Assembly: GCF_040026395.1 (NCBI RefSeq)
Contig: NZ_CP157278.1
Location: 3,038,001 to 3,102,000 of the forward strand
Reading direction: 5' to 3'
DNA from: Pedobacter lusitanus
Lineage (GTDB): Bacteria > Bacteroidota > Bacteroidia > Sphingobacteriales > Sphingobacteriaceae
DNA length: 64,000 bases
The notes beneath the pieces are model-generated. The model worked only from the letters and a program-made list of their open reading frames with translations. It did no database searches and was not told the DNA's origin. How positions within the stretch are numbered: position 1 is the stretch's first letter; every line of letters starts with the position of its first letter. Shown here piece by piece: positions 12,680 through 40,128 of this stretch. Made by a program: the position numbers and the translations under genes.

Positions 12680-12754
12680 GGGAGATTAGCTCAGCTGGTT
12701 CAGAGCACCTGCCTTACAAGCAGGGGGTCACTGGTTCGAACCCAGTATCTCCCA
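12680..12754 (+). tRNA. tRNA-Val (anticodon UAC), copy 1
   Basis: A full cloverleaf of 75 nt: acceptor arms GGGAGAT / ATCTCCC, D-arm GCTC...GAGC, anticodon stem CCTGC / GCAGG around CTTACAA, and T-arm CTGGTTCGAACCCAG. The anticodon TAC reads valine codons. The 3' CCA is not encoded. Confidence 0.97.
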
Positions 12755-12832: not shown

Positions 12833-12907
12833 GGGAGATTAGCTCAGCTGGTTCAGAGCACCTGCCTTACAAGCAGGGGGTCACTGGTTCGAACCCAGTA
12901 TCTCCCA
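12833..12907 (+). tRNA. tRNA-Val (anticodon UAC), copy 2
   Basis: Identical over all 75 nt to the copy at 12680-12754, starting 153 bp after it. The 78-bp spacer contains a terminator-like hairpin, so the two may be read as one transcript with partial termination or from separate promoters. Confidence 0.97.
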
Positions 12908-28926: not shown

Positions 28927-30384
28927 TTATTTAACGTCCCAGAATAGTTTTGTAGAGATCACATCACCACCTATTGCAGCTGCAGCAGCAGAATAGTTAG
29001 CTCCGTTTAATGTCTGCTCTCCGATTGGATAGATCAGACGTACTGGTATAGTTAAACCATCTGGTACAGATTGTCCCGGAGGAGCAGTAGCCGAAGTTGG
29101 TGGCGACAGTTTAGGGAAATCAAGACGTCTCCATTCTGTCCAGCTTTCATAACCTCTGTTATATAGTGCAATCCACTTCTGAGTACCAATTACCTCTTTA
29201 TAATCCGCTGAAGCTGTAGCATAGGCAACATCAGGACGGGCAAGATAAGTATCGGCTTCAGCTGCAGTTCCACCCCAGTAAAGAATAGAAGCAGTTACCG
29301 CTTTATTATAGTGATCAGCAGCTGTACCACCCACACTAAACCCTCTTGCGCTAGCTTCTGCCAATGCAAACTCAGTTTCAGGATAGTCAAGCAATAATGC
29401 TTCAAAATCTAAAGAAATGATTTTGTCTGTCATTGTTGAGCAGTTTCCAAAAGAGTTAGAGTACCCGTAATTTCCACCGACGAAGTTACCTCCGATTGTG
29501 GTAAAGAATCCTTTACGACGTGGATCTGACAAGGCATTTAACCTGTCAATAAATGGCTTAGCTCCTACAAAATCCTTTCTTTTTGTCAACAGGATATTAG
29601 CATTTGTTGAAATCGGATTATTATTTGGCGAGCTGGTAGTATATTTAAAAGCCGCATTATCAGCAGCACTTTTTAAAACATTAGGTGCCGCAGATTCAAT
29701 TGTAGCTTTAGCCTTTGCAGGATCTTTATCTGCAATGATTAGTCCCAATCTTAATTTTAAAGAGTTACCAAATTTAATCCAGGCATTGATATCTCCTTTA
29801 TAGATGATATCGGCTGTTCCCAAACCTGTAGCAGAAGTTTTTAATTTTCCCAATGCAGCATCTAAACGTACCAGCAGATCGCTGTATACAGTTGCAGCAT
29901 CATCATACTTTGGATTGACTACTCCAATATCCATTGCCTGGCTATAAGGAACATTTCCGAAGGTATTGACTAAAGTTGACCATGCCATTACTTCCAGAAT
30001 CTCTGCCTGTGCAATCTGATTGGTTTTTATATCGGCATTCAGCAGCGCGTCTGCAGCGATAACTTTCTTACCTTCTTTCAGATTGACAATTACTTTCTGA
30101 TAAACCGCATCCCAAAGCGCAGCAGGTATAGCTCTTGCCGTTAAATTATATCTTGGTTCATCCAGGTATTCTGTACTGGTCCAGTACTGCACATAAAAGC
30201 GGAATACATTTGAGTTCACGTTTGGCGTGGTCAGAATATCTGTAAAGTTTTTCTCTGCATTGGAGATAAACGTAACACCAGGAACCACAGTTGCCTTCTT
30301 CTGGTCAACGTTGTAGTCTCCCATGTTTTTAGCACAAGAGCTGAAAAATGCTGCTGCAACTAAAATGATATATATTTTTTTCAT
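28927..30384 (-). CDS. SusD-like lipoprotein, pair A
   Basis: A 485-residue SusD-like_2-type surface lipoprotein that caps the SusC barrel and captures ligand. The start is placed at ATG 30384, giving a lipoprotein signal with Cys17 (MKKIYIILVAAAFFSSC). An upstream in-frame ATG at 30411 lies inside the SusC coding end. The helical TPR-like core and the typical C-terminal pattern (GTQKWIALYNRGYESWTEWR, then RLIYPIGEQTLNGANY) are present. It follows susC A by 7 bp. No enzyme gene is attached, so the substrate is unknown. Confidence 0.92.
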   Translation of the reverse strand: MKKIYIILVAAAFFSSCAKNMGDYNVDQKKATVVPGVTFISNAEKNFTDILTTPNVNSNVFRFYVQYWTSTEYLDEPRYNLTARAIPAALWDAVYQKVIVNLKEGKKVIAADALLNADIKTNQIAQAEILEVMAWSTLVNTFGNVPYSQAMDIGVVNPKYDDAATVYSDLLVRLDAALGKLKTSATGLGTADIIYKGDINAWIKFGNSLKLRLGLIIADKDPAKAKATIESAAPNVLKSAADNAAFKYTTSSPNNNPISTNANILLTKRKDFVGAKPFIDRLNALSDPRRKGFFTTIGGNFVGGNYGYSNSFGNCSTMTDKIISLDFEALLLDYPETEFALAEASARGFSVGGTAADHYNKAVTASILYWGGTAAEADTYLARPDVAYATASADYKEVIGTQKWIALYNRGYESWTEWRRLDFPKLSPPTSATAPPGQSVPDGLTIPVRLIYPIGEQTLNGANYSAAAAAIGGDVISTKLFWDVK

Positions 30385-30391
30385 AATCTGC

Positions 30392-33300
30392 TTATAATTT
30401 AAATCTAACATTGAAACCTACAGTTCTCACTGCCGGATAAGATCCACTCTGATAGCCCTGAACATTACCTGAACTTAAACCATCTTCCGGATCTGCAAAA
30501 GGAACATTTTTATGAATGATCCAAAGGTTACGTCCAATCAGGGAAACATCGATTCCTTTGAATGCACGCAGTTTATTTACCCATTTAGCAGGTAAAGAGT
30601 AATTTAAAGCCAGCTCTCTTAATTTGATATAACCAGCATCATAGATTGCTGAAGCACGTGGAGGGTTGTTTGGATAACCGTACGCAGAATTACCAGAAGT
30701 AGATACGTCAATACGTTTGGTATTTGGTGTACCGTCAGCCAGAACGCCTGGTAAAACAATACCACCACCATTAGCCAGCGTGTTTCTTAACGGATTACCT
30801 AAATCATTTGTTCCGGCAGAACCTTCATACAGACCAGTTCCCTGACCATACCACTGATCCAATGACCAAAGGTCACCACCTTTACGAATATCGATCAGGA
30901 AGTTTAAGGAAACGTTTTTATACTTGAATGTGTTTCCTATACCACCCATCCATTTTGCATTAGGGTCACCGATAATTTCTGATGCACTTGCTGTAGCTGC
31001 ATAGTATCCATTAGCATTTACAACTGGTTTACCATCTTTATAAACATAGTTTGTTCCACGTATAATACCATATGGTTGTCCAACTGCAGCATTATAGGTA
31101 ACAGCACCCGATAAGGTAGTCGCACCTGTTGAAGATGCATAGTTCAGAGGTATGTTTGATACTCCCTCGAAAAGAGAAACAACTTTACTGCGGTTCATTG
31201 ACCAGTTTACGTTCAATGTCCATGAGAAGTCTTTAGTTTTTACCGGAATAAAGAATGCAGATACCTCCATACCTTTATTTTGTACTTCTCCTGCATTCAC
31301 AAATTTCCTTAAGAAACCTGTTGCTGAAGTTACCTGTACCGGTGTAATCTGATCTACAGTATTTGTTTTGTAGAAAGTCAGCTCAAATCCTAAACGGCTG
31401 TTCAGGAATGCAGTTTCCAGACCCGCCTCTATACTTTTAGTACGCTCTGGTTTTAAATCGCCGTTATTTTTTGTATCTGCCACAGCAAAGAATGGAATAG
31501 ATCCGAATGCTGTTGGTTTGCTATAAGTATCAAGAACGCTTAAAGGAGGTGCATCATTACCAACTTCAGCATAGTTTAATCTCACTTTACCATAAGATAA
31601 CCAGGTTAGATCTTTCAATGAATTAGAGAAGATATAACTTCCTGCTACTGATGGATACCAGAATGAATTTTTGCTGGTAGGTAGAGTTGTAGACTGATCT
31701 CTACGGATCGTTGCATCTAAAAAGAACAGATCTTTATAGCCAAAAGTGGCACTTGCAAAATAGCCATCCACTGCTCTTCTTTCCAATAGTTCCAGAGGAG
31801 CTTCAATCGGACTCACTGAATTAGATAAAGAGTACAGATTCGGAACAACCAGACCTCCATTGGTTTTAGCTGTAATGCTTGTTAATTTACTGCGGCGTAA
31901 GTTGGCGCCTAATAAACCTTTGAATGAAATATCTTCAGAAATTTTTCTGTTGAAGTTTAGCAACAGGTCAAAGTTGGTTTCAGCAAATGTTCCGTTAGTA
32001 CGGGAATAAAGAGGAAGTTGTGTACTTCCGATAGCAATATGTTCTTCCTGCATGCTTGAAGTTCCGTCAAAAGATACACGGCCAACAACATCAAACCAGT
32101 CATTTACTTTATAAGTCAGACCAGTATTACCGAAGTAATGGTCTCTTGTATCACTTGCAACGTTTTGGTAACGGTTAAAGTAAGGGTTATCTGCATAGAT
32201 CGGACCTTTACCAGTTTCATCACCCCAGTTCCAGCTGATGTTTTTACCGTTTCTTTCATAAGCAGTCTTCAGGTCTTTGATATCAGCAGCTACGTTCCAC
32301 CACTGACGGAAACCCTGCATAGGATTTAGTCCGGTATATCCAGTACCATAACGGCCTAAACCGTCAACTTTAGAATAATTTGCAGAAGCATTAACCGTAA
32401 GATTTTTTACAATTTCGTAAGTAGCGCCAAAATTAAAAAGGTTTTTGGTGATCTTACTGTTAGGAAGAATTCCTTTCTCATCGTTACGGGTGTAACCAAC
32501 TTTAAATGTGCCTTTCTCGCCACCACCGTCTATGCTCACACTCTGGTTAGAAGTAACAGCTGTCTGGAAGAATGTTGAAGGGTCATTTGCAGCTGCAACC
32601 CATGGGGTAGCTGTTTTGTATTTAGGAGAAAAAGGATCCAGTGATTCCCATTGATAAATCATCAGGTTCGGATCAAATTTAGGACCGTATGAAGCATCAG
32701 AACTAAACTGAGGAGTCATTACTTTACCTGTACCAAAAACATTTCTGTACCAGAAACCTGGCGTAGGAACAACATTACCATCTCCGTCAGTACCTGGAGA
32801 GTTATATCCCTGACCATATTCTTTCTGATATTTTGGAAAAGTAGATTTATCGATTTTTCCAAAAGTCACACCACTATTTACAGTGATGTTAGTTGCATTT
32901 TTACTGCCTTTCTTTGTAGTGATGATAACTACACCATTGGCAGCTCTTGATCCGTATAATGCTGTAGCAGCCGCACCTTTCAGTACAGTCATTGACGCTA
33001 CGTCATCAGGGTTGATATCTGATGCTGCATTACCATAGTCATAACCAGCACGACCTGAATTCTGATCTGCTGTATTAGAACTTGCATTTGATACAGGAAC
33101 ACCATCAATTACGAATAATGCCTGGTTATTACCAGTAATAGATTTTGCACCACGGATAACAATATTCGTTGACCCACCCATGGCATTGCTACGTTTAATA
33201 TCTAAACCTGCAACTTTACCACCTAATGAGTTTACAAGATTAATATCTCTTGTTCTGGTGATTTCCTCAGCTTTCAATTCCTGAGCAGCAAATGGCAGCT

Positions 33301-33652
33301 CATTCTTTTTACGGGCAATACCCATTGCGGTAACAACAACCTGCTCCAGCTGTTTTGAATCTTCAGCTAAAGATACGTTAACAACATTTGAAGCTGGAAT
33401 AGTTACACTTTGTGTAACATAACCAATGTAAGAAACATCAATTGTGGTTGATTCTTTCGGAACGGCAATGGAAAACTGACCTTTGGTGGAGGTCATAGCT
33501 CCTTGTTTTGCTCCTTTAACACGGACTGTAACTCCTGGGAGTGGTAACCCATCTGACTTTGAGGTGATGGTCCCCGTTACGGTCTTATCTTGCGCATTTA
33601 CTTGTATAGCAAACAGCAAAAAGACACAAAAAAATAGTAGTCTTTTTTTCAT
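30392..33652 (-). CDS. SusC/RagA-type TonB-dependent transporter, pair A
   Basis: A 1086-residue outer-membrane receptor. In order: a signal peptide (MKKRLLFFCVFLLFAIQVNAQ), a carboxypeptidase-like regulatory domain (about 23-105, TVTGTITSKSDGLPLPGVTV), a plug (about 118-250, with ALFVIDGVPVSN and ALYGSRAANGVVIITTKKG), then a 22-strand-type barrel ending in a C-terminal aromatic-rich strand (VGFNVRFKL). It would take up an oligomeric nutrient using TonB energy together with its SusD. No STN domain is present, so it does not signal through FecR. It is divergent from the riboswitch-controlled pair B. Confidence 0.95.
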   Translation of the reverse strand: MKKRLLFFCVFLLFAIQVNAQDKTVTGTITSKSDGLPLPGVTVRVKGAKQGAMTSTKGQFSIAVPKESTTIDVSYIGYVTQSVTIPASNVVNVSLAEDSKQLEQVVVTAMGIARKKNELPFAAQELKAEEITRTRDINLVNSLGGKVAGLDIKRSNAMGGSTNIVIRGAKSITGNNQALFVIDGVPVSNASSNTADQNSGRAGYDYGNAASDINPDDVASMTVLKGAAATALYGSRAANGVVIITTKKGSKNATNITVNSGVTFGKIDKSTFPKYQKEYGQGYNSPGTDGDGNVVPTPGFWYRNVFGTGKVMTPQFSSDASYGPKFDPNLMIYQWESLDPFSPKYKTATPWVAAANDPSTFFQTAVTSNQSVSIDGGGEKGTFKVGYTRNDEKGILPNSKITKNLFNFGATYEIVKNLTVNASANYSKVDGLGRYGTGYTGLNPMQGFRQWWNVAADIKDLKTAYERNGKNISWNWGDETGKGPIYADNPYFNRYQNVASDTRDHYFGNTGLTYKVNDWFDVVGRVSFDGTSSMQEEHIAIGSTQLPLYSRTNGTFAETNFDLLLNFNRKISEDISFKGLLGANLRRSKLTSITAKTNGGLVVPNLYSLSNSVSPIEAPLELLERRAVDGYFASATFGYKDLFFLDATIRRDQSTTLPTSKNSFWYPSVAGSYIFSNSLKDLTWLSYGKVRLNYAEVGNDAPPLSVLDTYSKPTAFGSIPFFAVADTKNNGDLKPERTKSIEAGLETAFLNSRLGFELTFYKTNTVDQITPVQVTSATGFLRKFVNAGEVQNKGMEVSAFFIPVKTKDFSWTLNVNWSMNRSKVVSLFEGVSNIPLNYASSTGATTLSGAVTYNAAVGQPYGIIRGTNYVYKDGKPVVNANGYYAATASASEIIGDPNAKWMGGIGNTFKYKNVSLNFLIDIRKGGDLWSLDQWYGQGTGLYEGSAGTNDLGNPLRNTLANGGGIVLPGVLADGTPNTKRIDVSTSGNSAYGYPNNPPRASAIYDAGYIKLRELALNYSLPAKWVNKLRAFKGIDVSLIGRNLWIIHKNVPFADPEDGLSSGNVQGYQSGSYPAVRTVGFNVRFKL

Positions 33653-33710
33653 AAAAGTTTAGGTTTTAATAGTGATTCGTCCGAAAGATAAAATAATTTA
33701 GCAGTCAAAA

Positions 33711-33731
33711 AAAATAATTTTAAATTATTTT
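33711..33731. repeat. AT-only palindrome upstream of susC A
   Basis: AAAATAATTT and AAATTATTTT flank a single T, a perfect 10-bp inverted repeat about 60 bp before the susC A start. It lies within its likely promoter region and may be an operator, but AT-only palindromes also arise by chance. Confidence 0.4.
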
Positions 33732-34044
33732 AACACAAAAGTTACATACTGACTACAAAAAAAACACCCCCATTATTTGCTAAAAATTATGTTTTTCATT
33801 AAAAAACATTGAAAATTATATGAAAAACGCAATAAAGTAAAAATCCATCACCAATAATCAGCTGCCATTTTAACCTTTTGTCCCTCAAAAGAGAAATACT
33901 CCCGATCTATAAGAATATTTACACACTTCAGACTAATCGTTCTCAGAATTATAAATCAGAAAGAAAAAACAGGACGTTTTTGTCTGATAAATCTCAGAAA
34001 ACACAGGCAACAAAATAAATACTATAGATTTAGTAGTTTATTTA
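33732..34044. other. Intergenic, AT-rich, no gene seen
   Basis: This part of the 849-bp gap between divergent pairs A and B holds no supported ORF or RNA. It probably contains the promoter of pair A. Confidence 0.5.
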
Positions 34045-34052
34045 TATATTTG
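34045..34052 (+). promoter_or_regulatory. Candidate -7 element upstream of the SAM riboswitch
   Basis: TATATTTG is an exact TAnnTTTG match, 29 bp before the riboswitch P1 stem, so the transcript would begin just ahead of the aptamer. A clear TTTG at the -33 position was not found. Confidence 0.55.
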
Positions 34053-34080
34053 CCCGTGATTTAGTTGTTCATTGATTTTT

Positions 34081-34187
34081 ACTTATCCAGAAAGACAGAG
34101 GGAAAGGCCCGATGAAGTCTTAGCAACCTATACACCAGTTTTGTAAAAGGTGCTAACTCCTATCCACATTAAGCGGAAAAGATAAGT
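34081..34187 (+). promoter_or_regulatory. SAM-I (S-box) riboswitch
   Basis: This 107-nt leader element has the conserved S-box core in order. P1 strand ACTTATC (34081-34087) pairs with GATAAGT (34181-34187). P2 contains AGACAGAGGGA, GGCCCGATGAAG and TCTTAGCAACC. A P3 hairpin has CACC / GGTG. The downstream joining segment is GGTGCTAACTCC. These are the invariant SAM-I landmarks (k-turn GATGA, GCAACC, GGTGCTAA-TCC). It lies 314 nt upstream of susC B on the same strand. High SAM should lower expression. The expression platform is not obvious: only a weak hairpin (34197-34202 / 34210-34215) follows directly. Confidence 0.93.
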
Positions 34188-34501
34188 GACATATATACCA
34201 TTATAAGACAATGGTTTAAGTCATCTGTTTCCTCAATCATTTCTGATATTAAGAATCTATAAAGGATACTGATTCATAAATAATGATTAATTAAACACAA
34301 CAATTGTATAATTCGATGAAAACACCGCTTAACATTCTCTTCGGGAGCAATCCTGCTCCATTGCATCCTATATATGCAGCCTCATGGCTATATGCAGAAA
34401 ATCTGCATTTGTTAATCCCATTCAAATAAGCACTGACAAAGTCAGTAACACAAACACACCCAATTATTAATCCGGAATATAATTCCGCTATTCAGTTAAA
34501 T
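34188..34501 (+). other. Long leader between riboswitch and susC B
   Basis: A 314-nt untranslated stretch with several small dyads: ACCATT / AATGGT at 34197-34215, CTGAC / GTCAG near 34434-34446, and GGAAT / ATTCC near 34473-34485, just before the start codon. It also holds a 37-codon ORF (34316-34429; begins MKTPLNILFGSNPAP), which could be a leader peptide but has no independent support. Confidence 0.5.
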
Positions 34502-37500
34502 ATGTATAAAACTTACAAATACTTATTTGGGATCATCCTATCCTTTATAATCATACAGACCGCTGCAGCTCAATCAGCTAAAATCTCTGGCGTAGTCACC
34601 GAGAAATCCAACGGACAACCTTTGCCAGGGGTAAGTATCCTTGTAAAGGGGACAAATATCGGTACACAGACAGATGGAAATGGTAAATTCAGCATCACTG
34701 CCAAACCGAATGATATACTAAAAATTGTATCCATAGGCTTTAATAGTCAGGAACTTAAAATAACCACAACAAATGCACTCACTGTACAACTGGAAGAATC
34801 ATCCAATGCATTAAGCGAAATTGTTGTAACCGCACTGAATATTCCGAAAGAAAAGAAATCTTTAGGTTATTCGGTTCAGGAATTAAAGTCAAAGGATCTT
34901 TCTGAAGCAAAAGAGACTAATCTGCTCAATGCTTTATCCGGAAAGGTAGCCGGTGTACAGATAACAAACAGTCAGGGCGACATGGGGTCTTCCAGAATCA
35001 TTATTCGTGGAGAGACTTCCATTTCAGGTAACAATCAACCCCTGTTTGTGATTGACGGAGTACCGGTAGATAATACACAAAATCTGGGCAATGGCGGATC
35101 ACGTGATTTTGCCAATACAATATCAGACATCAATTCTGAAGATATTGAATCCATGAGTGTATTAAAAGGACCTAATGCTGCCGCACTTTATGGCTCAAGA
35201 GCCGCCGCAGGTGTAGTCTTAATTACAACAAAAAAAGGCAAAAACTCACAGGGTTTAGGCATCAGCGTGAATTCAAATGCAACATTTTCAACTTTACTAA
35301 CTATACCATCTTATCAGAATTCATTTGGACAGGGTGCTAACGGCCAGTTCAGTTATGTAGATGGTAAAGGTGGTGGTGTTAATGATGGTGTAGATGAGAG
35401 CTGGGGTCCAAGACTGGACGGGCGTTTAATCCCGCAGTTTAATTCTAATGGTACTCCGGTGCCATTCATTGCACATCCAAACAATGTACGTGACTTCTTT
35501 AATACCGGACGCACCCTGAACAATGGAATCTCCATTTCAGGATCAGGAGAGAAATATAACTTACGTTTTTCTTATAACAACCTTGATCAGACTGGTGTTA
35601 TTCCAAACTCATCACAATCAAAAAACTCTTTCCTTTTAAATGCTACTTATAAAATAACACCAAAACTGACTTTCAATGCATTAGCCAATTATGTAAACAG
35701 CAGTGCAGCAAACCTACCGGGTTCTGGTGGAAAAAGAGCCAGCAGTACGATGCTGCAATTCACCTGGTTTGGCCGTCAGGTTGATGTAGATAAATTAAAG
35801 ACCTATCAGGATGCCAACGGGAATAATATTAACTGGAATAACAGCTATTACAGTAATCCATATTTTGTTGCTTACGAGAATACGGTAAGTCAGGTTCGTA
35901 ACCGGCTGATTGGAAGCGCTGAATTAAACTATAAAATAATCGATGGTTTGTCAGCAAATTTCAGAACCGGGAATGACTACTATACTGACCGCAGAAAAAT
36001 CAGGATTGCTTATGGAACCAATGGAACTCCATTCGGATCTTATGAAGAAGATGCCTATACTTTTAGCGAAAACAATACCGAAGGAAGACTGGATTTCAAT
36101 AAAAAGCTGAATTCAGATTTTAATCTTGATCTTTTATTGGGAGGGAATATCCGTACCACCACTTTTGAAAACAATAACCAGAAAGCTCCTAAGCTGGCAG
36201 TTAATAACCTTTATACCTTAAGTAACTCCCGCGATCCGCTGATCTCTTCTAACGAATACAGCAAACAACGGGTATACAGTACATTCGGTTCTGCTCAGCT
36301 TGGTTTCAGAAATTATGCCTACTTAAATGTAACGGCAAGAAACGACTGGTCTTCTACCCTGCCTCCGCAAAACCGTTCATATTTCTATCCTTCAGTCAAT
36401 GCGAGTTTAATTCTTACTGAAGCCTTCGACATTAAGAGTGATGTTCTAAACTTTGCAAAACTTCGTGGCGGATGGTCTAAAGTAGGTAAAGACGCCAGCC
36501 CTTACCAATTATTCAACAATTATCAGTTTACTGCGCCATTTGATAGTAATCCGCAGCAAAATCTCAATAAAGTAGATCTGAATCCCGAACTAAAGCCAGA
36601 AACTACCAAATCTACCGAAGCAGGTCTTGAACTGGGCTTTTTCAAAAACAGAGTACGTTTTGACTTCAGTTTATATAATACAAACAGTATCAACCAGATC
36701 TTAAGTCTGGACGTGAGTCCAACTACCGGATATCTTAAGAAACTTGTTAATGGTGGTACGATTAACAACAAAGGAATCGAGGCTCAACTAGGTATAACAC
36801 CAATCAAAACAAAGGACTTTACCTGGGATATCAATGTTAATTATTCGATGAATCGCAGTAAGGTAAAAGACCTTTATCAGAAGGTACAAAGCTATGAACT
36901 CGGATCAGACGGATCTGTTCAGATTCTGGCAACTGTAGGACAGCCATATGGAACAATTTTCGGTACAGCTTATGAAAGAAATGCAGCCGGAGATATTATT
37001 ATTGGCGCAGACGGAACACCACAGGCAAGTCCTACTAAAAAAATCCTTGGAAAGTATACACCAGACTGGCTGGGTGGTATTAACAATACATTTACTTATA
37101 AAAGGATCAGTTTAAGTGTATTGGTTGATGCACATATTGGTGGAAAAATTTACTCAGGAACCAACAGTACCGGAACTTACACAGGAGTATTAGCCTCTAC
37201 CCTTCCGGGACGTGGTGCTGAAAACGGAGGGATAACTTATTATAAAAATGCCGCTGGCAAAGCAGTACAGATTAACCCTGGTACAGCTGCTCCCGGAGGT
37301 GCGTCCATTTATGATGACGGAATGATTTTCAAAGGCTTATTAGCAGATGGTACACCAAACAATACCATCATACCTGCAAGTCAGTATTACAAATCAATGA
37401 ACAATATAGACGAAGCATCAGTTTACAGTGCTACTTATATTAAACTGAGAGAAATAAAACTGGGTTACACCTTACCTGCGCAATGGATCAAATCCATAGG

Positions 37501-37672
37501 TCTGCAAAGCGCAACAATTTCAGCAGTAGGCAGAAATCTGTTTATCCTGCATAAAAATGTACCTAATATTGATCCTGAATCTGCTTTTAATACAGGTAAC
37601 GGACAAGGTCTTGAAGACCTCGGACTACCAACCGTACGTACTATTGGTTTCAATCTTAATTTCAAATTCTAA
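34502..37672 (+). CDS. SusC/RagA-type TonB-dependent transporter, pair B (SAM-riboswitch controlled)
   Basis: A 1056-residue outer-membrane receptor with signal peptide (ending in IIQTAAAQ), regulatory domain (about 25-100; KISGVVTEKSNGQPLPGVSI), plug (about 115-245; LFVIDGVPVDNTQN and AALYGSRAAAGVVLITTKKG) and a large barrel ending IGFNLNFKF. It lacks an STN domain. The upstream SAM-I riboswitch ties its expression to cellular SAM, which suggests the cargo is a methionine- or sulfur-containing compound, perhaps peptides; RagA/RagB is a known peptide-importing member of this superfamily. The substrate is an inference from regulation only. Its SusD partner follows after 5 bp. Confidence 0.95.
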   Translation: MYKTYKYLFGIILSFIIIQTAAAQSAKISGVVTEKSNGQPLPGVSILVKGTNIGTQTDGNGKFSITAKPNDILKIVSIGFNSQELKITTTNALTVQLEESSNALSEIVVTALNIPKEKKSLGYSVQELKSKDLSEAKETNLLNALSGKVAGVQITNSQGDMGSSRIIIRGETSISGNNQPLFVIDGVPVDNTQNLGNGGSRDFANTISDINSEDIESMSVLKGPNAAALYGSRAAAGVVLITTKKGKNSQGLGISVNSNATFSTLLTIPSYQNSFGQGANGQFSYVDGKGGGVNDGVDESWGPRLDGRLIPQFNSNGTPVPFIAHPNNVRDFFNTGRTLNNGISISGSGEKYNLRFSYNNLDQTGVIPNSSQSKNSFLLNATYKITPKLTFNALANYVNSSAANLPGSGGKRASSTMLQFTWFGRQVDVDKLKTYQDANGNNINWNNSYYSNPYFVAYENTVSQVRNRLIGSAELNYKIIDGLSANFRTGNDYYTDRRKIRIAYGTNGTPFGSYEEDAYTFSENNTEGRLDFNKKLNSDFNLDLLLGGNIRTTTFENNNQKAPKLAVNNLYTLSNSRDPLISSNEYSKQRVYSTFGSAQLGFRNYAYLNVTARNDWSSTLPPQNRSYFYPSVNASLILTEAFDIKSDVLNFAKLRGGWSKVGKDASPYQLFNNYQFTAPFDSNPQQNLNKVDLNPELKPETTKSTEAGLELGFFKNRVRFDFSLYNTNSINQILSLDVSPTTGYLKKLVNGGTINNKGIEAQLGITPIKTKDFTWDINVNYSMNRSKVKDLYQKVQSYELGSDGSVQILATVGQPYGTIFGTAYERNAAGDIIIGADGTPQASPTKKILGKYTPDWLGGINNTFTYKRISLSVLVDAHIGGKIYSGTNSTGTYTGVLASTLPGRGAENGGITYYKNAAGKAVQINPGTAAPGGASIYDDGMIFKGLLADGTPNNTIIPASQYYKSMNNIDEASVYSATYIKLREIKLGYTLPAQWIKSIGLQSATISAVGRNLFILHKNVPNIDPESAFNTGNGQGLEDLGLPTVRTIGFNLNFKF

Positions 37673-37677
37673 TTTCC

Positions 37678-39111
37678 ATGAAAACAAAATATATACCGCT
37701 GTTACTGTCAGGCTTACTGCTTATTACAGCTACCTCCTGCAAAAAAACACTGGACGAAACTAATGTTGATCCAAATAATTCAAAAACAGCACAACCAGAA
37801 TTTCTGCTGACAGCAGCAATTAAAAACACGTCTGACACCTATTGGGGTACGACCAATAATATGAACTCGAGTTTACTCTTTGTACAGCACTGGGCTAAAA
37901 TCCAATATACTGACCCGGACAGATATATCTTTAGCAATACATCCTTTCAGGATTTATGGACAACAGGATACCGGTTGGGAATAGTCAACCTGAATCAACT
38001 GATTAAACTGGCAGATGCCCAGGGAAACACGAACTATAAAGGCGTTGCCCTTGTACTCAGATCATGGATCTTCGCACTGGAAACCGATGCTTACGGTGAT
38101 GTACCTTACTCACAAGCCGGAGATATCAGTCAGTACCTGACCCCAAAATATGATACGCAGAGAGATGTATATCTGGGTATTTTAAACGATCTGAAAACTG
38201 CGCAGACCAGCTTAGATCCGGCAGGGAAGCCAATTTCAGGCGATGTTATTTATGCGAATTCAATTGCCTCATGGAAAAAATTTGCCAACTCATTGCGTCT
38301 GAGAATCGCACTGCGCATTGCTGATCGCGAACCAGAACTTGCCAGACAGGTTATTGCTGCTGTCCAAACCGAAGGTGGAACATATATCAGTTCGAATGCA
38401 GAAAATGCACAGCTGAACTATAAAGCCTCTCCCAATCAAAATCCGATCAGTAATCTCTTTGATACGCGTGACGATTACCGGATCAGCAAAACGATTGTAG
38501 ATCAGTTGACAGCCTTAAATGATCCGCGTCTTGCAGTATACGCAAGTAAAGCCGCCAAAACACAACTTTACACCGGGGTACCTAATGGATTACTCCCGGG
38601 TGATGCTTCTGCTCTTGGACTAACCAGCACCTCAAAACCCGGCGCTTATTTTATTGCCCCAACTGCTCCAGCTGTAATTATTAGCTATGCAGAAATACTG
38701 TTTGACCGTGCAGAAGCAGCGGCAAGAGGATTTACCAATGAAAATGCCCCATCTCTTTACAAACAGGCTGTAGAAGCTTCTTTACTGCAGTATGGTATTT
38801 CCACAACAGATATTGCAACTTATCAGGCAAGACCAGATGTACAATATGATGCCTCCAATTTTAAAAAGTCAATCGGGAACCAAAAATGGATAGCCTTATT
38901 CGGTCAGGGCCTTGAAGCATTTGCAGAATGGAGAAGACTCGATTACCCGATACTGACCCCTGCGGTAGCTGGTTCATTAAACGGCAAAATACCAGTAAGG
39001 TTTATTTACCCGGGAACAGAGCAGTCTTTAAATCCTGAAGGCTATAAAGCAGCTGTGGCAAACCAGGGAGCAGATGCTTTAACTACAAAGCTCTGGTTTG
39101 ATGTAAACTAA
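37678..39111 (+). CDS. SusD-like lipoprotein, pair B
   Basis: A 477-residue SusD-like_2-type lipoprotein with Cys21 at the lipobox (LLLITATSC). The fold is shown by GDVPYSQAGDIS near residue 140 and GNQKWIALFGQGLEAFAEWR near the C-terminus, then VRFIYPGTEQSLNPEGY. It works with susC B as the lid of the transporter and shares the SAM-riboswitch transcript. Confidence 0.94.
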   Translation: MKTKYIPLLLSGLLLITATSCKKTLDETNVDPNNSKTAQPEFLLTAAIKNTSDTYWGTTNNMNSSLLFVQHWAKIQYTDPDRYIFSNTSFQDLWTTGYRLGIVNLNQLIKLADAQGNTNYKGVALVLRSWIFALETDAYGDVPYSQAGDISQYLTPKYDTQRDVYLGILNDLKTAQTSLDPAGKPISGDVIYANSIASWKKFANSLRLRIALRIADREPELARQVIAAVQTEGGTYISSNAENAQLNYKASPNQNPISNLFDTRDDYRISKTIVDQLTALNDPRLAVYASKAAKTQLYTGVPNGLLPGDASALGLTSTSKPGAYFIAPTAPAVIISYAEILFDRAEAAARGFTNENAPSLYKQAVEASLLQYGISTTDIATYQARPDVQYDASNFKKSIGNQKWIALFGQGLEAFAEWRRLDYPILTPAVAGSLNGKIPVRFIYPGTEQSLNPEGYKAAVANQGADALTTKLWFDVN

Positions 39112-39269: not shown

Positions 39270-39674
39270 ATGAGAATTCTACTCACTTTAATCACCTGCT
39301 GTATTCTGCTTTTTTCCTGCAGAAGAGACCATTCATCAACAGATCAGGCAGCAACACTACAAGAAAGAACAACAGCCAGTACAGCATCTACAGATACTGA
39401 TGCTGAAGACAATGTAAAAGTAGCCGGCGTCCCTCAAAAGGCCTATACAGTGGCTGCATACATTGCTAAAAATAATAAAGCTCCGCAGGGATATGTTGGC
39501 GGGACAGTTTTCCAGAACCGGGAAGGACGATTACCGCAAGGCGTAGCTTATAAAGAATACGACGTGAACCCCAAAGTCAGAGGACAGAACAGAGGGGCAG
39601 AACGAATTATAATCGGAGCTGATGGCATCCGTTATTATACGGGAGATCATTATAGAACATTTACAAAATTTTAA
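39270..39674 (+). CDS. Lipoprotein-type barnase-family ribonuclease
   Basis: A 134-residue guanyl-specific RNase of the barnase family, which cleaves single-stranded RNA after G. The C-terminal half carries the barnase core GGTVFQNREGRLP, then E96 (YKEYDVN), R112 (GAERIII) and H127 (TGDHYRTFTKF), matching barnase E73, R87 and H102 with similar spacing. The N-terminus is a lipoprotein signal with Cys17 (CILLFSC), followed by a Ser/Thr-rich linker of about 35 residues. So the enzyme is exported and probably lipid-anchored, perhaps as an antibacterial or RNA-scavenging enzyme. The inhibitor gene follows after 4 bp. Confidence 0.9.
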   Translation: MRILLTLITCCILLFSCRRDHSSTDQAATLQERTTASTASTDTDAEDNVKVAGVPQKAYTVAAYIAKNNKAPQGYVGGTVFQNREGRLPQGVAYKEYDVNPKVRGQNRGAERIIIGADGIRYYTGDHYRTFTKF

Positions 39675-39678
39675 AGAT

Positions 39679-40128
39679 ATGAACGGATTTTGCCTCTTTG
39701 AAGCTGGAAAAGAAAAAGACCTGATTAAGGACAATACACGTATTGTGCAGATAGATGGACGTGAAATTGTAACTGTGGATGAGTTTATTCACGATATAGC
39801 CGGGCAACTCGACTTTCCGGATTACTATAGCAGTAGTCTGGATTCACTGGAAGAACTGCTTAACGATTTAAGCTGGCTTAAAGAATCCGGGTTTGCAATT
39901 ATAGTCCGCAATTACTCATTTTTCCTATGCGAAGAAAAGAATCTTGCACGGAAAGCCAATTTACTGGCATTACTTAATGACGTAGCCGAACAATGGGATA
40001 ACGTACCTAATTATCCCGGAGAAGAAGATTTCAGGAATAAAGCTGTCTTTAATATATATGTAGAGAAAGGATCAGCTGCAGTTTCTGAACTGGAGAAACT
40101 TAAAATCAATTACAGCGAGGCTAAATAA
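39679..40128 (+). CDS. Barstar-family RNase inhibitor
   Basis: A 149-residue protein with a barstar domain at about residues 20-80 (IDGREIVTVDEFIHDIAGQL followed by DFPDYYSSSLDSLEELLNDL and a tryptophan), which binds and blocks barnase-type RNases. The ATG at 39679 is preferred: the longer frame from 39622 would run through the end of the RNase gene. The C-terminal 60 residues are extra compared with the 90-residue classical barstar. It has no signal peptide, so it protects the cytoplasm until the RNase is exported. It forms a toxin-immunity pair with the gene 4 bp upstream. Confidence 0.88.
   Translation: MNGFCLFEAGKEKDLIKDNTRIVQIDGREIVTVDEFIHDIAGQLDFPDYYSSSLDSLEELLNDLSWLKESGFAIIVRNYSFFLCEEKNLARKANLLALLNDVAEQWDNVPNYPGEEDFRNKAVFNIYVEKGSAAVSELEKLKINYSEAK

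Follow-up and report, generated by a model that had tools for sequence, protein, structure and literature searches.

SusC/SusD pairs are among the main outer-membrane importers of Bacteroidota, with many of them lacking an assigned ligand, while the S-adenosylmethionine (SAM)-I riboswitch, or S-box, is a well-known class of regulatory RNA. Among the solved SusC/SusD systems, BT2263-BT2264 of Bacteroides thetaiotaomicron (5fq6) is presented as a pair of unknown function with a complex containing peptide (PMC11992087, PMC7782687). A different kind of leader is represented by the polycysteine leader open reading frames (ORFs) of mycobacteria (Canestrari 2020) and by uORFC-8-2, an ORF with cysteine codons preceding cysS in Rhodobacterales (PMC8632094). 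Here, we analyze a 64,000-nucleotide stretch of the Pedobacter lusitanus genome (NZ_CP157278.1, positions 3,038,001 to 3,102,000; hereinafter the window), which encodes a SusC/SusD pair (pair B) preceded by a SAM-I aptamer and belonging to an ortholog group whose leaders mostly also contain a short ORF ending in cysteine codons. We consider it probable that these leaders are best explained as placing an importer of a sulfur source under the dual control of SAM and cysteine.

The first-pass annotation of the window had described a near-textbook S-box before pair B and proposed a search with RF00162 as its check. That search recovers the aptamer on the forward strand well above the cut-off (83.5 bits against 44.4; E 3.2e-18) over the whole model (positions 1–108), with the motifs ACTTATC/GATAAGT (P1), GATGA, GCAACC and GGTGCTAA all in place; our own SAM-I model, R1, scores it at 111.9 bits. 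This match confirms that a SAM-I aptamer stands before the SusC/SusD genes (Table 1), and, judged by its sequence, the aptamer is intact. The genes themselves, separated by 5 bases, show the features expected of such a pair: the TonB-dependent barrel carries both a plug and an extension at its N-terminus, and the gene after it encodes a SusD lipoprotein, whose Cys21 is invariant in 12 SusD orthologs.

The Bacteroidetes -7 promoter consensus is TAnnTTTG. All 66 leaders examined have this motif in the 60 nt preceding the aptamer (50 shuffles: mean 4.7, maximum 9). Of 41 leaders, just one has it between the aptamer and susC, against a mean of 8.7 in 30 shuffles; it is absent from that interval in the window, where a sigma-70-type promoter scan of positions 33650–34560 stays at chance level (5 sites against 5.3 in shuffles). 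As the promoter-like motif precedes the aptamer and nearly never follows it, the aptamer most likely lies on the susC message.

A profile built from 12 SusD orthologs retrieved 515 relatives in named genomes, of which the best 80 were kept; hence, the statements on conservation made below hold for the nearest orthologs, the closest being the SusD of Pedobacter cryoconitis (91%). Our model finds SAM-I in 67 of these 80 loci (individual loci are cited by L-numbers), Rfam concurring in all six of the 67 that were compared. In 65 of them it lies upstream of susC on the same strand. The riboswitch–SusC layout, whose recurrence in relatives had been suggested as a further check, is thus conserved among these orthologs; the other two matches sit on the opposite strand. 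In the 65 same-strand loci, susC is the first gene in 40, while in 25 one or two genes intervene: a cysteine desulfurase in four (L154, L172, L176 and, in a short form, L132) and a TlpA-like thioredoxin in the remainder. The former was identified with Pfam on L154 and the latter with Pfam on L104, in the same place as L130, with the other thioredoxins assigned by likeness. In a sample of the genus, SAM-I is present in 59 of 60 genomes, that of the window included, and 22 of the 29 new loci among its best-scoring matches (L010–L038, a sample thus biased to high scores) have it before SusC and five before a cysteine desulfurase, the last two being unassigned. Two loci of the layout carry a further same-strand SAM-I downstream of the pair, before a motif-named cysteine desulfurase (L150 12802–12921, L157 8705–8824), and another has three Flavo-1 RNA matches upstream of its SAM-I/SusC leader (L185 570–1229).

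The pairing of the aptamer was assessed across 64 sequences of the SAM-I/SusC layout (63 distinct, the window's included; L150 and L157 excluded). Alignment cells changed on both sides of a pair number 168, compared to 54.4 in shuffles, none of 500 shuffles reaching as high; the share of paired cells is 96.2%, whereas shuffles give 87.0% and slid controls no more than 49.8%, and the covariation score is 0.291 against 0.116. The P1 cells are 88% paired in an alignment fitted to a model that holds no P1 pairs. By the count of covarying cells, then, the P1–P4 pairing is kept by compensating changes. Taken with the conserved layout and the single promoter-like motif before the aptamer, this gives good support to the earlier proposal that SAM-I controls the SusC/SusD genes, as far as sequence comparison can speak to control.

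Most relatives have a second element immediately ahead of susC, namely a short ORF whose last codons encode cysteine (e.g., ..MRCCC* or ..CCCCC*, the asterisk denoting the stop), as in ..MPAMCCCC* (L142), ..MCCCCCC* (L157), ..MQKNCCC* (L124) and ..FRMRMPC* (L184). In operons with a TlpA or desulfurase gene ahead of susC, the ORF is found after that gene and before susC. At least two cysteines among the last eight residues are found at 66 of 78 loci (100 shuffles: 7.2, maximum 13) and at least three at 44 (0.6, maximum 3), as compared to six and zero loci, respectively, in an antisense control. The enrichment persists after clustering SusD at 80% identity (19/22 and 13/22), and it marks 70 and 45 of 89 SusC orthologs versus one and none of 18 other SusC/TonB receptors, the latter being further such genes in the DNA examined, chosen by identity to exclude orthologs. 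The ORF is also present in eight of ten orthologs without SAM-I, which are mostly Chitinophagales (e.g., ..CMRCCCMC* in L169), and missing from the other two (L153 and L188); on this count the cysteine ORF would be shared more widely than SAM-I. A narrower pattern, TTYMGNATGMGNNNNNNNTGYTRA (FRMR..C*), yields 17 matches in 17 of the 60 genus genomes (reversed control: 3), 11 of them in SAM-I/SusC leaders, and none in the genome of the window. Another, TGYTGYTGYTGYTRA, had been considered as a genome-wide sign of a regulon, with 15 matches in this genome and none in the control; it was dropped because 11 of these matches fall within longer reading frames or opposite them, six of the 11 being one repeat. 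Separately, poly-cysteine short ORFs lie 38–131 nt before other SusC-like genes in other genera (L204, L212 and L222), whose products are 27–40% identical to the window SusC over the part compared.

The same type of ORF recurs in other SAM-I leaders: sorted by first gene, it is present before metY in 8 of 11 (the window genome's own included, where SAM-I is followed by ..NACMCCCIG* and then metY) and before metX in 3 of 3, as opposed to desulfurase 0/18, metH 0/3, hom 0/3, peroxiredoxin 0/4 and TlpA 1/14, in a comparison that involves unequal leader lengths, motif-named first genes and no shuffles, and in which 29 of the 132 sorted leaders stay as "other", some being SusC leaders that the motif missed. 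The peroxiredoxin-like genes behind SAM-I were met in one genus of the family (L086, L097, L107, L110). Across the phylum SAM-I is found in 167 of 198 genomes; 70 of these loci (the 30 best and 40 chosen) mostly have metY-, metX- or metH-like first genes, about five first ORFs appearing spurious, and none has a SusC-like first ORF. One of the 70 carries a cysteine ORF: L305 (G314, from another family of the class), in which SAM-I is followed by a heptacysteine ORF and then by a 3′-phosphoadenosine-5′-phosphosulfate reductase-like gene. An aptamer followed by such an ORF resembles a SAM sensor coupled in series to an attenuator of the cysteine leader-peptide type.

Might the ORF instead encode an arrest peptide, sense redox state or metals, or act purely as RNA through structural TGY repeats? 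Cysteine codons do lie within hairpin arms in several groups, and the last nine codons have undergone more non-synonymous than synonymous changes (665 versus 315). On the other hand, both cysteine codons are used (TGT 151, TGC 124), the changes in those codons peak at third positions (388/449/629 by codon position), a bias that is weaker after the stop (86/78/97; the pairs are not independent), and the element is common to metY. We regard these alternatives as unlikely, albeit as the strongest of those considered here.

Turning to the cargo, the two sulfur-type elements before the importer genes suggest that the pair takes up sulfur-bearing amino acids or peptides. The first-pass annotation had expected the import of a sulfur or methionine source, and the cysteine-rich leader ORF and the TlpA-like and desulfurase genes of some of the operons support this, with the qualification that the evidence points to cysteine no less than to methionine. 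Its suggestion that the source might be peptides fits the match of the pair B SusC to BT_2264 (E 1e-131; the next solved relative, 1.6e-47). Other SAM-I/SusCD operons carry an M28 peptidase with a TlpA-type thioredoxin (L050 and L052 by Pfam, L054 by likeness); the partners named by Pfam in the sampled operons are TlpA-type AhpC-TSA, M28 peptidase and class-V aminotransferase. In L041 SAM-I precedes a desulfurase, with sulfate-assimilation-like genes nearby, beyond a gene on the other strand. The likeness to BT_2264 itself is class-level evidence, as discussed below. From the leader elements and operon partners, we judge cysteine- or methionine-bearing peptides to be the most likely predicted cargo.

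The 6.05 Mb genome, a single contig, has four SAM-I elements: two before SusC/SusD pairs, one before metY-metX-hom and one before metH-metF (names by sequence likeness, Pfam having been run on metY alone). The latter two suggest that the cell has its own methionine route, the control of which the importers seem to share. The second SAM-I-bearing pair (L005) is 25% identical to pair B in SusD and 29% in SusC; its locus is L005 10319–17183 (C1 595318 on), it is followed by a BT_3987-like protein, and its leader contains an ORF ending ..SARHCWG*. A third pair, pair A (window 28927–33652, minus strand), is oriented divergently from pair B and is a paralog of it (SusC 38%, SusD 36%) in which neither SAM-I, by the Rfam search of the window, nor a cysteine-rich leader ORF is found.

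That the aptamer is real while the pair imports a sulfur-poor cargo, for instance a glycan or a cofactor, with the sulfur control incidental, is a possibility we deem slightly less credible than the foregoing one on the ORF. In its favor, leaders of this type are lacking from some of the pairs whose SusC resembles BT_2264, and a gene for a GH92 enzyme lies downstream on the opposite strand. Set against these are the two sulfur-type leader elements carried by the same orthologs, in a combination common to metY, and the fact that some of the operons include genes for a thioredoxin-like protein or a desulfurase.

For the favored dual control by SAM and cysteine, we infer the direction of switching, the attenuation and the ligand as follows. 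A single transcript would run from just before the aptamer through susC and susD. With SAM plentiful, the aptamer would close P1 and expression would fall, whereas with SAM low the transporter would be made. In the ortholog group, a second sensor would act directly before susC: when charged Cys-tRNA is scarce, the ribosome would be held at the cysteine codons of the short ORF, blocking the hairpin there and letting the message continue. In L184, the second hairpin begins within the last cysteine codon and the stop (CCTGTTAA), with a U-run after its end, such that a ribosome at that codon would cover its 5′ arm; nine sequences of the Pedobacter main group give a consensus hairpin followed by a U-run. 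The pair would hence respond when either sulfur amino acid, methionine or cysteine, runs short, and import an organic sulfur source, probably cysteine- or methionine-bearing peptides.

Table 1. Features of the pair B leader and genes (window coordinates).
Feature	Positions	Strand	Remarks
Promoter-like TATATTTG (-7 motif TAnnTTTG)	34045–34052	+	Motif match
SAM-I (S-box) riboswitch aptamer	34080–34188	+	RF00162 match
Hairpin directly 3′ of P1, no U-run	34187–34223	+	Folds; candidate part of the expression platform
Segment complementary to the P1 5′ strand, candidate switching partner	34240–34253	+	Duplex -10.4
ORF from the conserved leader-ORF start (MKT..)	34316–34429	+	Out of frame with the window cysteine codons
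Short ORF MQPHGYMQKICIC ending in cysteine codons (C-I-C)	34374–34415	+	Remnant or short form of the cysteine leader
Terminator-like hairpin ATGCAGAAAATCTGCAT, then TTGTT	34392–34408	+	Overlaps the cysteine codons
SusC-type TonB-dependent transporter (pair B)	34502–37672	+	Plug, CarbopepD_reg_2 and TonB barrel domains
SusD-type lipoprotein (pair B), SusD-like_2	37678–39111	+	PF12771, E 2.6e-111; relatives among solved SusD proteins

In the window, the terminator-like hairpin at the cysteine codons is one of two such sites in 911 bases, the other being on the minus strand (shuffles: 0.2, standard deviation 0.5), and hairpins like the one abutting P1 are also seen in the folds of close relatives. 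Of the 66 leaders, 20, including those of the Pedobacter main group, have a site resembling an intrinsic terminator in the 110 nt that follow the aptamer (5 shuffles: 0–2), and a candidate alternative pairing with P1 reaches at most 5 in 100 shuffles in 34 of 66. For 20 Mucilaginibacter leader tails, RNAalifold returned no consensus fold. As to the frame break between the conserved start and the cysteine codons of the window, the two share a frame in L124, L126 and L056, and the shift is either a real change or a sequencing slip. We find it quite improbable that pair B has escaped the control of its aptamer in this strain, with expression arising elsewhere or independently of SAM, since the sole TAnnTTTG motif precedes the aptamer and the latter scores high, even if no canonical terminator follows it and the leader is changing fast in the clade of the window.

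Several observations nonetheless weigh against dual control by SAM and cysteine, or bound it. Thirteen of the 80 loci are without SAM-I; in three of these (L136, L164 and L167) the contig does not include a full susC, but the remaining ten have susC and at least 900 bases upstream of it, and in the loci without SAM-I Rfam shows nothing else apart from one tRNA. Within the aptamer, pairs in which both partners have changed are no more numerous than in shuffles (10 versus 9.7), and the outermost P1 pair fails in 34 of 63 sequences. In the window, no canonical terminator is found within 110 nt after the aptamer, and the duplex of the candidate switching partner, set against a shuffle mean of -7.4, is equaled by 9 of 100 shuffles and so is not significant alone. 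When 180 bases of L184 are folded, forcing P1 yields the terminator while the free fold has neither; when the stretch is extended to 190 bases, P1 and the terminator appear even in the free fold, making the outcome dependent on length. The two states being this close, the SAM-off reading is drawn from the riboswitch family. The body of the leader ORF displays little codon conservation, a codon test across the entire ORF being weak (169/167/184 in the Pedobacter main group), the window ORF has two cysteine codons besides its break from the conserved start, and L049, L058 and L125 do without the cysteine-ORF part altogether, which makes that part dispensable in the window's clade. Finally, pair A and the second SAM-I-bearing pair, neither with such a cysteine leader, also match BT_2264 best, and it is for this reason that the likeness counts at the level of the class.

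The cysteine part of the window leader is reduced and possibly in decay. A wider proposal is that Sphingobacteriaceae use a two-input sensor both for metY and for a dedicated SusC/SusD importer of cysteine- or methionine-bearing peptides, that its cysteine part is the more broadly shared one, and that the window's clade is losing the cysteine input while keeping that for SAM; we hold the case for and against this to be evenly balanced. The SusC/SusD version of the proposed two-input leader is also present in Sediminibacterium. SAM-I may have been added upstream of a pre-existing cysteine part, though the SusD tree does not settle the order in which the two were gained: the rows without SAM-I need three changes on it versus 4.4 in shuffles, with 56 of 500 shuffles as low.

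Elsewhere in the window, a barnase-like ribonuclease-family gene and a barstar-like gene follow susD (39270–40128), and L049, L056, L057 and L058 have similar genes, as judged by sequence and size, after their pairs. Two tRNA genes with the same score and aligned sequence lie 78 bases apart (12680–12754 and 12833–12907).

A metabolite-specific leader of this kind offers a testable ligand class for a whole group of SusC/SusD orthologs, and two sulfur sensors in series would, if true, show how the bacteria concerned weigh methionine against cysteine supply. A literature search that covered few subscription journals returned no report of SAM-I before a SusC/SusD pair or of SAM-I and a cysteine leader in series. 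With the canonical SAM-I (RF00162), the leaders described here share the sequence core and the pairing and, in some relatives, a terminator-like site downstream; they differ in standing before an outer-membrane SusC/SusD pair. Of the importers, BT2263-BT2264 is the closest solved relative of the window SusC, while RagA (6sli_B) of Porphyromonas gingivalis is a far weaker match (E 1.7e-42), RagAB being likewise of the SusCD type and described as a peptide importer. With the cysteine ORFs of mycobacteria and Rhodobacterales, our elements have in common tandem cysteine codons before sulfur or Cys-tRNA genes with a hairpin or terminator nearby; here, in contrast, they are found in Bacteroidota, in series with SAM-I, and before SusC/SusD pairs and metY.

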